From a virus, in the IMG/VR virus record IMGVR_UViG_3300047319_000334, positions 1-64,000 of that record: DNA of 64,000 nucleotides, one strand, 5' to 3'. Numbering within the stretch: position 1 is the stretch's first letter; every line of letters starts with the position of its first letter. The notes beneath the pieces were generated by a model. It saw only the letters and a program-made list of their open reading frames with translations, was not told the origin of the DNA and did not search any database. Position numbers and translations under genes: made by a program. Shown one piece after another: positions 59,699 through 63,259 of the stretch.

Positions 59699-60457
59699 TT
59701 AGGCGGATACTCGCTTGAACTCGACGACCCAGACCCACGGGTCGGCGTCCCATGATTCGGCGCCGTTGATCGATTCCCACAGGCAGCGAAACGAGCTGCG
59801 CGGCGAATACGTGCCATCCACGCCGCTGCGGCCGTATGTGCTCCAGAAGCCGGCAGGCGTCTTGCCGATGCCTTCCGCAATGGCGTCTTGCTCGCTGATG
59901 TCCTGCAACCGCTCGACGCGCACGCCAGTGACTTCGAGCGTGATGCGCGACGCCCAGCGCGGCATGTGGATTGAGGGGCATGCCTTGGCGCCATAGCTCA
60001 ACAGCGCGGATGAGCGGGGGCAGCCGGCGACGTTGTAGCTGGCACCGGGTGCGCGCGTTTCCTCGACCCAGTAATCTCCGATCGTCGGCGTGGTCGAGAC
60101 GTCGTGGCGAAACAGGCCCGGTTTTTCCAGCACGCCGCGAAGCTTGCTGATTACGCCGCTCTCGCGCACCCACAGGCGGTCGCCGGGTTGCCCATGCGGG
60201 CATTCGAAGCCATAGCCGTCTTTCATGATGTGACGACCGTCGTATTCGCCAGGCTGCTCGAATTGCAGGTATGCACGATCACCGCGGCTGGACATGTGCT
60301 TGTCGCGTGCCGGCCAGTAGACCTTCGGAAGATAGCCGTCTTGAATTACAGCGGGCGGCTGACGTTTCATGACGCGGCGCGTCTGCGTCTTGCTGCCGTC
60401 GAGCAGAGCGCGCACCATCGGGCCGCTGAAGAGGATCGGACGTTCTTTGATGGTCAT
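59699..60457 (-). CDS. ASCH-like phage protein
   Basis: 252 residues. ERPILFSGPMVRALLDGSKTQTRRVMKRQ, QPGDRLWVRE, ITLEVTGVRVERLQDISEQDAIAEGI and FRCLWESINGAESWDADPWVWVVEFKRV are the standard motifs of this widespread phage family with an RNA-binding ASCH-type fold. Its ATG overlaps the stop of the reverse-transcriptase remnant (ATGA). Confidence 0.75.
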   Translation of the reverse strand: MTIKERPILFSGPMVRALLDGSKTQTRRVMKRQPPAVIQDGYLPKVYWPARDKHMSSRGDRAYLQFEQPGEYDGRHIMKDGYGFECPHGQPGDRLWVRESGVISKLRGVLEKPGLFRHDVSTTPTIGDYWVEETRAPGASYNVAGCPRSSALLSYGAKACPSIHMPRWASRITLEVTGVRVERLQDISEQDAIAEGIGKTPAGFWSTYGRSGVDGTYSPRSSFRCLWESINGAESWDADPWVWVVEFKRVSA

Positions 60458-60614
60458 TTGCTGCCCCGATATGTTTTGGTCAAAGCCTGGTTGACGGCGT
60501 GGCCGCGGCGTCGCACTGCGTTCGCTAGCGTCGCGCGGTCGTGGTGGCTGCTTGGCGCTTGACCCAGCAGGCCGAAATAGCTGTTCGAGACAGGCCGAAA
60601 ATCTCGGATTACGC
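60454..60614 (-). pseudogene. Remnant of DGR reverse transcriptase, C-terminal tail
   Basis: About 53 codons in the frame ending at TGA 60454. They read RRVIRDFRPVSNSYFGLLGQ, then SSHHDRATLANAVRRRGHAV. The pattern SNSYFGLLxxxxS...R..L followed by a basic end resembles the C-terminus of DGR-type reverse transcriptases. No polymerase motifs (YxDD or others) lie upstream; an HNH gene sits there instead. The four-base overlap with 59699-60457 suggests an original operon gene end. Confidence 0.55.
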
Positions 60615-61106
60615 GACGTGCTTCCAGATTTCCCGCTTCACGATGCGCTGAACTGTCTTGACCGACACGCTCAGTTCCCGTGCCAGAGCGCTCAGGCCAT
60701 GGTCTGGGTCGCGGGGCACGTGACGCCGACGAATCTCCGCAACCTGCGCCTCGGTGAGTTTGTTGCTGTGGTGCTTTGTCCCAACCACCTTGGTTCCATG
60801 CTCGGCCTTGTCGGCTTCGTTCTCCAGCGGCGTTCCATAAGCCAGATTGCCCAAACTCGGATCGCTGTTCTTGCCGTCCAGATGCCGAATCACAAGACCG
60901 CGAGGACGTGGACCGAGAAAGGCCGCAGCGACCAACTTGTGCACAGCGACTTTCTTGGCCCTCCCATCCACCCAGAAACTCACGCGCGGATAGCCGTCGC
61001 CATCCGGCGTGGCCTTTCTGATCCGCGCGCCGCGCCTCACTCGCCCCAAACTGCTGACCTCGTATCCGACGAACCCCACTACCGGCAACCATTCTTCTGA
61101 TTCCAT
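60609..61106 (-). CDS. NUMOD4-HNH homing endonuclease inserted in the DGR
   Basis: 165 residues from ATG 61106 (AAGGAG six bases upstream). Residues 1-20 (EEWLPVVGFVGYEVSSLGRVRR) are NUMOD4. HNH core: AVHKLVAAAFLGPRPRGLVIRHLDGKNSDPSLGNLAYGT. A C-terminal HTH (LSALARELSVSVKTVQRIVKREIWKHV) follows. It occupies the place where template repeat and reverse transcriptase are expected. Confidence 0.85.
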   Translation of the reverse strand: MESEEWLPVVGFVGYEVSSLGRVRRGARIRKATPDGDGYPRVSFWVDGRAKKVAVHKLVAAAFLGPRPRGLVIRHLDGKNSDPSLGNLAYGTPLENEADKAEHGTKVVGTKHHSNKLTEAQVAEIRRRHVPRDPDHGLSALARELSVSVKTVQRIVKREIWKHVA

Positions 61107-61134
61107 GTGCATCTCCTTGACCTCCACGAAGCGG

Positions 61135-61476
61135 GCGATGTGCGGCGTTCTTCCACCCGTTGGCCTGCTTCCCGATGCTGGTCGTCTGCTCGACGGACCC
61201 GGCGTACGCCTTACGCGAGATAAGGCGCTTGTCCATACCAAGGCGCAAGAGCAGTTCGATCACCTGAAGGCGTTCGAGCAACTCGGTCAGGTGCGACGCC
61301 TTGTCGACTGCCACGTTCGCGCGAAACACCAGAACCATGATCTCGATGCATTCCGTGCTGATCTTCTCGCCGATGGAGCGTTTGAAGTCGCGCGGCATGT
61401 TCTTGACCATGTCGGTGACGCTATCGAGCAGCGCATAGGCCGCTCGATAAATCGGAAGTTGGGTGTGCAGGGCCAC
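61135..61476 (-). CDS. avd: Avd-like accessory variability protein (four-helix bundle)
   Basis: About 114 residues of Avd-type sequence from GTG 61476: LPIYRAAYALLDSVTDMVKNMPRD, SIGEKISTECIEIMVLVFRAN, LLERLQVIELLLRLGMDKRLIS, SIGKQANGW. Avd proteins bind the reverse transcriptase and its RNA in diversity-generating retroelements. There is no stop at the expected place: the frame stays open to 60454 through the HNH gene and into the reverse-transcriptase tail. The original end was therefore probably replaced. Confidence 0.8.
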
Positions 61477-61490
61477 GATGGTTTAAATGA

Positions 61491-61955
61491 TCAAATTACT
61501 GAAGGGATAAATCTGCGGACGGCGCGGGCGCGGAACTCGTAGCTCTGGTGGTCGTAGTGCTGACTGCCGTCGTCGAAGTACTGACACCAGGCCCAGCCGG
61601 ACTCCGATTCATGCGCCTCGGTCGACCAGTACGCACGCTCTTCGAACTCGCCCTTCAGGTTCGCGAAGAGCAACGATTGCTCGCGACGGGTCGGGAGTTC
61701 GCCGCCTTGCTCGACTGCCCATTCCTTGGCCGCCGACCACGAGACATCGTCCACGTCGCCGGGCAGCAGGATCAGGTGATGCGACAGCACGCCGTCCTCG
61801 CCGAGCACGACACCTGCGTAGCGCTCACCCGGCGCGAGCGGAATCGTTGCCGCCGGAATGCGGAGTTCCGTTGCACGCGGCTGCTTCTTGAACTCCGCGA
61901 TCAGTTCACTGATGCGGGACTGTTCGGCCTCGATGGCTTCAAGCGTGATGGTCAT
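61491..61955 (-). CDS. DGR target protein 2 (DUF1566/C-type-lectin-like)
   Basis: 154 residues. The N-terminal 55 (helix, then PAATIPLAPGERYAGVVLGEDG) differ from target 1. From LLPGDVDDVSWSAAKEWAVEQGGELPTRREQSLLFANLKGEFEERAYWSTEAHESESGWAW on it is identical. The variable stretch is then followed by EFRARAVRR. Closing FRARAVRR is typical of lectin-fold variable proteins. The ligand is unknown. It sits in the early operon, not with the tail genes. Confidence 0.75.
   Translation of the reverse strand: MTITLEAIEAEQSRISELIAEFKKQPRATELRIPAATIPLAPGERYAGVVLGEDGVLSHHLILLPGDVDDVSWSAAKEWAVEQGGELPTRREQSLLFANLKGEFEERAYWSTEAHESESGWAWCQYFDDGSQHYDHQSYEFRARAVRRFIPSVI
61539..61586 (-). other. DGR variable region, copy in target 2
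   Basis: 16 codons; 10 differ from target 1, always with the third base conserved. On the coding strand it is followed by GAGTTC and then 14 consecutive G/C bases, resembling the initiation-of-mutagenic-homing signal of the Bordetella phage DGR. Confidence 0.75.
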
Positions 61956-61985
61956 TGCGATGCTCCGTTGTAAATGGGCAAAGGG

Positions 61986-62345
61986 TTAAATGGACAATCT
62001 GCGGACGGCGCGGGCGCGGAACTCGCTGGTCTGGCGGTAGCAGTACTGACCGCCGCGGTCGAAGTCCTGATACCAGGCCCAGCCGGACTCCGATTCATGC
62101 GCCTCGGTCGACCAGTACGCACGCTCTTCGAACTCGCCCTTCAGGTTCGCGAAGAGCAACGATTGCTCGCGACGGGTCGGGAGTTCGCCGCCTTGCTCGA
62201 CTGCCCATTCCTTGGCCGCCGACCACGAGACATCGTCCACGTCGCCGGGCAGCAGGATGGTGTGCGTGACATCACCGGTTGCGTTTACGAAGCCGCCGAG
62301 ATAGATTTCGCCTTCTGCGAGCGGGGGAAGCTGAACTTGTTGCAT
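61986..62345 (-). CDS. DGR target protein 1 (DUF1566/C-type-lectin-like)
   Basis: 119 residues from ATG 62345 (AGGAAAA upstream), MQQVQLPPLAEGEIYLGGFV.... Residues about 33-93 are identical in DNA and protein to target 2 (186 bp). The variable stretch then differs, and the end is RAVRRLSI. First gene of the DGR cassette and just downstream of the exonuclease. Confidence 0.75.
   Translation of the reverse strand: MQQVQLPPLAEGEIYLGGFVNATGDVTHTILLPGDVDDVSWSAAKEWAVEQGGELPTRREQSLLFANLKGEFEERAYWSTEAHESESGWAWYQDFDRGGQYCYRQTSEFRARAVRRLSI
62025..62072 (-). other. DGR variable region, copy in target 1
   Basis: Counterpart of 61539-61586. All variable codons end in T or C and match the third base of the other copy. 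AAC/AAT codons at these positions would be the expected template. Confidence 0.75.
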
Positions 62346-62491
62346 GAGTTTTCCTGTGAAAAAGAGCCGCGCATACTGGCCGGCTAAGCGCACGCTTGCG
62401 GAGACCACCGCAAGGTTTAGGGGCGCGCCAACAGACTTACTCAGAGATTCACGCCGGAGGCTTCATCTGATGCTGGTGGACGCGTGAGGGT
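62346..62491. other. Short gap between exonuclease and DGR target 1
   Basis: 146 bases, no gene; includes the ribosome-binding site of target 1. No hairpin with T-run noticed. Confidence 0.35.
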
Positions 62492-63259
62492 TTAGGCGGC
62501 CTCCTGACGAAGCACCTTTTCGTACTGAGCGACCAGCATGGCGAATTCCCAGAGATCCTTTTCGAGCGCTTCGATGTAGTCCTCATCGCGCTTGAATTCC
62601 TGATACCAGAACTGCTTTCCGGCGGGCTCCAGCGCCGGGCAGTACAGGCAGTTATGCCACCACTTCCGGCCAGAGATCCACATGCCGCCCATGGACTGAT
62701 CATGGACGTCAGTGAAATCGCCGTCGATGTAGATTGAGCGGAGGCGATCGGGAGCAACGAAACACTTGTACTCGCTGCCGCCGTCGTCATTGATCAATCC
62801 GTCAACACTGACGCCAAAGAGCCCATCGTCCGTTTTCATGAACCCGCAGCGCTGCACGAACAAGCCTGTGCGAGCTTCGTGCTCCATGCGCGCGGACGGC
62901 TCCAGATCATGTCCGCGGCGCATCTGCCAAGTCTCGAACCCCTCGTCAAGCGGCTCTCCACTAATGCGCTCGACCGCAAGCCGGAAAGCGTAGTCCTTGG
63001 CTTTATCCGAGTAGTCGCCGACCTTCTCGCCGTTGAGGGCCCGGGTGATGATGTCGGACTTCGGCAGGGCCTTGTATCCGGCTGCCTCAGCAGCGGCCTT
63101 CTCGGGCGTGCCGGCCAGACGTAAATTGACGAACTGCTGCTGACGGTCATCCAGGCATCCGACCTTGCTGCGAGCGGTCGCAAACATACTGGCAGTAATT
63201 ACGCCCGCGCGCGCCCGATGCCATTCCGGTGAACCCTGTTCGCATTCGACAATAATCAT
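62492..63259 (-). CDS. YqaJ-type (lambda Exo-like) exonuclease, copy B
   Basis: 255 residues, complete. MIIVECEQGSPEWHRARAG, EPSARMEHEARTGL, GVSVDGLIND and EYKCF are the family nuclease motifs (Glu, Asp, Glu-x-Lys). Residues about 36-70 (DDRQQQFVNLRLAGTPEKAAAEAAGY) are absent from copy A and look like the HTH of small terminases. The ATG overlaps the partner gene stop. Confidence 0.85.
   Translation of the reverse strand: MIIVECEQGSPEWHRARAGVITASMFATARSKVGCLDDRQQQFVNLRLAGTPEKAAAEAAGYKALPKSDIITRALNGEKVGDYSDKAKDYAFRLAVERISGEPLDEGFETWQMRRGHDLEPSARMEHEARTGLFVQRCGFMKTDDGLFGVSVDGLINDDGGSEYKCFVAPDRLRSIYIDGDFTDVHDQSMGGMWISGRKWWHNCLYCPALEPAGKQFWYQEFKRDEDYIEALEKDLWEFAMLVAQYEKVLRQEAA

Follow-up and report, generated by a model that had tools for sequence, protein, structure and literature searches.

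In the window, that is, the whole 64,000-nucleotide stretch of viral DNA analysed here, an invading free-standing HNH homing endonuclease gene appears to have disabled a diversity-generating retroelement (DGR) of the type with an Avd gene and C-type-lectin targets, an explanation to which we give a probability of roughly two in three. When related loci are considered as well, the best reading is that the conserved 3' end of the reverse transcriptase (RT) gene is a recurrent point of entry for HNH homing genes, which delete the template repeat (TR) and the RT and freeze the target genes. We regard this as a new variant, in which a known system is disabled by a known kind of element and the combination recurs. 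In a literature search, we recognised no paper linking DGRs with invasion by homing or HNH endonucleases or with RT replacement.

On the minus strand, a YqaJ-type exonuclease gene is followed by two tandem target genes (T2 and then T1), Avd, the HNH gene, the residual tail of the RT gene and the next early gene (Table 1). Past the latter lie a second HNH gene, a DNA methyltransferase gene and, farther on, an integrase gene in the opposite orientation. The complete virus record of 64,325 bp also contains portal, terminase, tail sheath and tape measure genes, which indicate a tail of the contractile type. The carrier is a tailed temperate phage with such a tail, and its DGR is placed in the early operon, not adjacent to the tail genes. 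A plasmid search gave no match.

Table 1. Features of the DGR-derived locus in the window (L007 and L049 are the closest intact relatives).
Feature	Positions	Strand	Remarks
YqaJ-type exonuclease gene	62492-63259	-	
T2 target gene	61986..62345	-	119 aa; Lcl_C / C-type lectin; ATG 62345, stop 61986
VR2	62001..62084	-	84 bp compared; 0/61 non-A and 12/23 A positions differ from the L007/L049 TR
14-base G/C run, end of VR2	62006..62019	-	putative, IMH-like
T1 target gene	61491..61955	-	154 aa; Lcl_C / predicted C-type lectin fold
VR1	61515..61598	-	84 bp compared; 0/61 non-A and 9/23 A positions differ from the L007/L049 TR
14-base G/C run, end of VR1	61520..61533	-	putative, IMH-like
Avd (bAvd) homology	61135..61476	-	PF22296 and phrog_3206 matches
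HNH endonuclease gene	60609..61112	-	NUMOD4 + HNH_3; ~167 aa; HNH motif present
Tract 100% identical to L008	60544..61409	-	866 bp; most of Avd, HNH gene, start of RT tail
Residual RT C-terminus	60454..60591	-	last 43 codons, VSNSYFGLLGQAPSSHHDRA...TKTYRGSK*
Next early gene	59699-60457	-	

An earlier interpretation made from the letters alone (the sequence-only reading) had singled out the early-operon placement of the targets as unusual. The placement is real but normal for this family, as seen in Burkholderia phage Magia (NC_070954) and Shewanella phage vB_Sb_QDWS (OK094664), which share the target-target-Avd order and the lectin-like targets. Magia carries two targets, Avd and RT between exonuclease/RecT and excisionase/integrase genes and has the same early-operon surroundings as the window (exonuclease, RecT, excisionase, integrase, SRAP); in QDWS, the target-target-Avd-RT cluster lies upstream of the integrase gene. 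Since Avd, RT and a potential DGR target are all labelled in the Magia record, complete DGRs at this position are already annotated and the position is not new. In both phages, the variable repeats (VRs) agree with the phage's own TR at every one of the 59-60 non-A sites. Both keep a TR and a full RT, the place of which is taken in the window by an HNH gene plus the final 43 RT codons.

The two tandem targets bear the lectin-like ends that had been proposed for them. The Lcl_C matches of T1 and T2 in profile searches (E 3e-5 and 4e-5) fell under the Pfam cut-off, and an AlphaFold model of T1 (pLDDT 91.5) gave as its top PDB match the C-terminal domain of Legionella Lcl (8q4e, E 5e-5); the model is consistent with a DGR target of the C-type lectin fold carrying a C-terminal VR. 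The closest intact relatives, L007 and L049, have 95% Avd identity to the window and a TR between Avd and RT, and the T1 protein shares 86% amino-acid identity with T1 of L049. T2 is composite: its 5' half resembles T2 of L007 and its 3' half is a copy of that of T1. A 261-bp tract common to the two 3' halves (61512-61772 in T1) contains only 12 differences, all within the VR and at template-adenine sites, which shows that a T1-to-T2 conversion took place recently and was followed by diversification of a VR.

Comparison of both VRs with the TR of L007/L049, that is, with the template of relatives and not an own one, revealed differences at adenines only, which bears out the variable stretch noticed earlier. 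The 14-base G/C run past it is likewise real and follows both VRs. The VRs may accordingly be read as products of DGR activity: across 175 intact loci, 336 VR-TR pairs differ on average at 0.19 of 59.5 non-A positions and at 11.65 of 24.5 A positions (only pairs with at most 6 non-A mismatches were admitted, and some are repeats from the same phage). A chance resemblance of the VRs was rejected because they show against the relatives' TRs the same adenine-only pattern as these 175 intact loci.

The Avd-like protein expected directly downstream of the targets was recovered with two HMM libraries (PF22296 bAvd, E 5e-13; phrog_3206 'Avd protein of DGR', E 1e-28). An Avd accessory protein is thus present, though its ORF has no stop of its own: the native stop is lost, and a frame of 340 aa (60454-61476) remains open through the HNH gene, which it crosses in a different reading frame from HNH, into the RT tail. 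What had been taken for the rest of the Avd gene is actually the HNH endonuclease gene and the last 43 RT codons. The template and RT presumed to follow were not found either. A profile search revealed no RVT_1 match anywhere in the 64,325-bp record, and a search of the window detected no TR-like copy of the VR frame within 9 mismatches besides the two VRs. A DGR-type reverse transcriptase and a template repeat near Avd/RT are both missing, and a complete DGR was rejected on these two empty searches. Since an HNH gene stands in place of TR and RT, the locus is, on present evidence, unable to diversify on its own.

The DGR of Bordetella phage BPP-1 has the layout mtd-avd-TR-brt. The sequence-only reading had assigned the window to this type, and the assignment stands by descent, given the targets, the VRs differing at adenines only, the Avd, the IMH-like runs and the RT tail, while both defining catalytic parts are gone and replaced. 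The likeness to BPP-1 covers the architecture up to Avd, the G/C-rich IMH-like end and the C-type-lectin target. On the other hand, the protein diversified in BPP-1 belongs to the tail, and both TR and RT are in place there, whereas the targets of the window are early genes and TR/RT are lost.

The HNH gene occupies the position that TR and RT have in relatives, in frame with the preserved start of the RT ORF (GTG-GAG-GTC-AAG at ~61127). Its NUMOD4 and HNH_3 domains exceed the curated cut-offs in profile searches and its motif is intact, as would be expected of a homing-type nuclease. Relative to intact L007, ~1.2 kb of TR and RT are gone and 0.52 kb stands in their place; the native sequence returns directly past the HNH end, just before AAC-AGC-TAT-TTC, the beginning of the NSYFGLL codons. 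The RT tail of the window has no ATG, GTG or TTG start of its own, and at its stop it overlaps the beginning of the next gene. The window gave no Rfam match and no intron family, and the HNH gene does not lie within an intron; an intron or intein around it was rejected for this reason and because splicing would be unable to restore the deleted RT.

The 866-bp tract shared with locus L008 (contig IMGVR_UViG_3300047446_000089) has sharply different surroundings. Beyond it, 48 of the 90 preceding bases match L008, identity falls to 63% in T1, and the genes downstream are different. In T4-type phages, free-standing homing endonucleases, co-conversion, asymmetric resection and a preference for conserved targets are documented, and a converted tract round an endonuclease gene in otherwise divergent phages is a trace of homing (PMC2988022). 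By this comparison, we read the 866-bp tract as a co-conversion tract and the mark of a recent homing event. The converted flanks are shared, the surroundings diverge, and L007, L049 and Magia represent the empty alleles. Like the T4 seg/mob and HNH free-standing endonucleases (PMC2988022), the gene is intron-free, has converted flanks and presumably targets conserved coding DNA. T4 endonucleases sit between intact genes, whereas in the window the presumed target RT is deleted together with the template. The phages' own recombinases could also have exchanged the cassette and so spread it without endonuclease action. As L008, and perhaps the record of the window as well, is a metagenomic contig, a misassembly on one side of either join is conceivable, although loci of this kind were found in whole bacterial genomes too.

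An HNH gene sits at the same position in the window and in at least 12 further loci of related phages and prophages, with each phage counted once. When 399 Burkholderiaceae genomes were screened for the RT C-terminus, 37 places turned up in 33 genomes; 11 of these places hold short, truncated or internally deleted RTs, and in 7 of the 11 an HNH gene replaces the RT. Further cases came from a search of one 148-genome genus, which yielded G406 (two copies) and G471, and from IMG/VR scans, which contributed L175, L257, L260 and the fragment L264. By sequence, up to four groups of HNH proteins can be distinguished, their identity from group to group being 14-43%: group A (the window, L008, L170), group B (L134/L159/L160, L094), group C (L156, L158, L161, L168, L257, L260) and group E (L162, L175 and the fragment L264). 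Since groups A, C and E may be distantly related to one another, the number of independent HNH origins lies between two and four. Of the IMG/VR relatives with at least 66% identity to the group-C HNH, all five were located directly behind a DGR target gene.

In groups A, B and C, the kept RT DNA begins within ~12 bp of the AAC codon of NSYFGLL, a block of high DNA conservation among 117 distinct intact RTs; the individual alignments suggest that junctions cluster at this block. The 5' ends of the cassettes differ, lying after Avd in the window, inside Avd in L134, before the TR in L094 and directly past T1 in group C. With one side constant and protected and the other variable and resected, the pattern recalls the asymmetry known from I-TevI (PMC2988022). 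Exceptions were also found: the junction of group E is nearer RT codons 328-337, those of L170 and L260 are near codon 396 with part of the tail kept, L257 has lost the RT tail, and L157 has an orphan RT tail without an adjoining HNH gene. Other genes were noted at some of these loci. A PNKP-type phosphatase gene lies beside the HNH gene within the RT replacement of Trinickia mobilis (L094:8996-9463). The RT remnant of L162 contains DNA methyltransferase and IS-type transposase genes (L162:2634-4792), inserted within the NSY codons, the site favoured by HNH cassettes. Upstream of the orphan tail of L157, a 537-aa protein with many QVGDQV/QVRAQV-type repeats is encoded (L157:2400-4013, genome G318).

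A homing mechanism could account for this organization as follows. The ancestor of the locus, near L007/L049, would have had the order target-target-Avd-TR-RT. Recombination would then have copied in a cassette with an HNH gene between the first codons and the last 43 codons of the RT, and its entry would have eliminated the TR along with every catalytic domain of the RT. The likely homing site is the conserved NSYFGLL-coding DNA close to the C-terminus of the RT. At this site the endonuclease would cleave alleles that carry an RT; the side with the RT tail would survive, while resection on the other side would proceed through RT and TR until homology was reached in or before Avd. Repair from an HNH-bearing donor would then leave the cassette in place. 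The targets would retain the VRs from the last DGR activity and be fixed unless RT and TR came in trans.

Could the same loci have arisen by ordinary decay, with a dispensable RT being deleted, common HNH genes filling the gap and general recombination spreading the cassette? RT loss without any HNH gene, by internal deletion or truncation, is seen at L091/L164, L211, L045, L114 and L163, which shows that DGRs also decay without homing, and HNH genes are frequent in phages, with 483 records matching that of the window. Decay would not, however, lead one to expect several HNH groups in one interval, the same 3' codons kept in three of them or close relatives of the group-C HNH at DGRs only, and we consider it rather unlikely as the explanation.

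A poorer prospect is that the DGR is non-autonomous, with RT, Avd and a matching TR coming from a related phage or prophage in the same cell. An L007-like phage could diversify the window's targets in trans, since the TR of L007 would match the VRs of the window, which agree with the L007/L049 template at every non-A position. Furthermore, non-A differences are not clearly more numerous in VR pairs from RT-less loci than in intact controls (0 in the window, against a control mean of 0.70), and a VR was diversified after the recent 261-bp conversion. A recent loss of RT accounts for the same pattern, however, and the VRs are identical in the tandem RT-less copies L159/L160 and L168/L169. No RVT_1 protein was found in the three whole host genomes with L094/L166, L159/L160 and L161; the targets should therefore be frozen there.

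It is very unlikely that the HNH gene has taken over the role of the RT, cutting the target cluster and, with the YqaJ/RecT-type genes, shuffling VR segments as an RT-independent diversification; VRs would then be exchanged between tandem targets and with co-infecting relatives, and the 261-bp conversion would be one such event. We give hardly any credence to the idea that the last 43-50 RT codons form a small protein with its own function, hence the constant boundary: the tails of L156, L157, L158, L159 and L161 are intact ORFs whose ATG overlaps the upstream stop, and L094 has a GTG a few bases past the stop of the upstream gene, but an in-frame ATG at most 8 codons upstream occurs in only 40 of the 117 distinct intact RTs, so that a conserved internal start was rejected, the tail is lost in L257, partial in L170 and L260 and startless in the window, and coupling to the overlapping next gene explains the tail equally well.

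If invasion by homing HNH genes is the correct explanation, selfish genes repeatedly switch off phage hypermutation via the most conserved end of the RT, and the resulting loci are natural knock-outs in which hypervariable lectins persist without diversification. Such loci would make it possible to test directly why phages retain DGR targets: for binding alone, or for changeability. The global DGR survey of Roux et al. 2021 started from RT profiles (PMC8144416). Surveys anchored on the RT are blind to RT-less loci, and consequently present and former DGR targets are undercounted.

Two further observations concern the intact loci. In Magia (L001:6425-7708) and many others, the RT frame is open upstream through the TR, so that the TR would be translated as the N-terminus of the RT; the annotated RT of Magia includes the TR. 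Finally, QDWS (L002) and 'Hujiaoplasma' phage zrk29-1 (L003) have records of 47,902 bp each and supposedly unrelated hosts; their DGR regions are 99.5% identical but have only one VR in common, which points either to recent DGR activity in one phage or to a mislabelled host.
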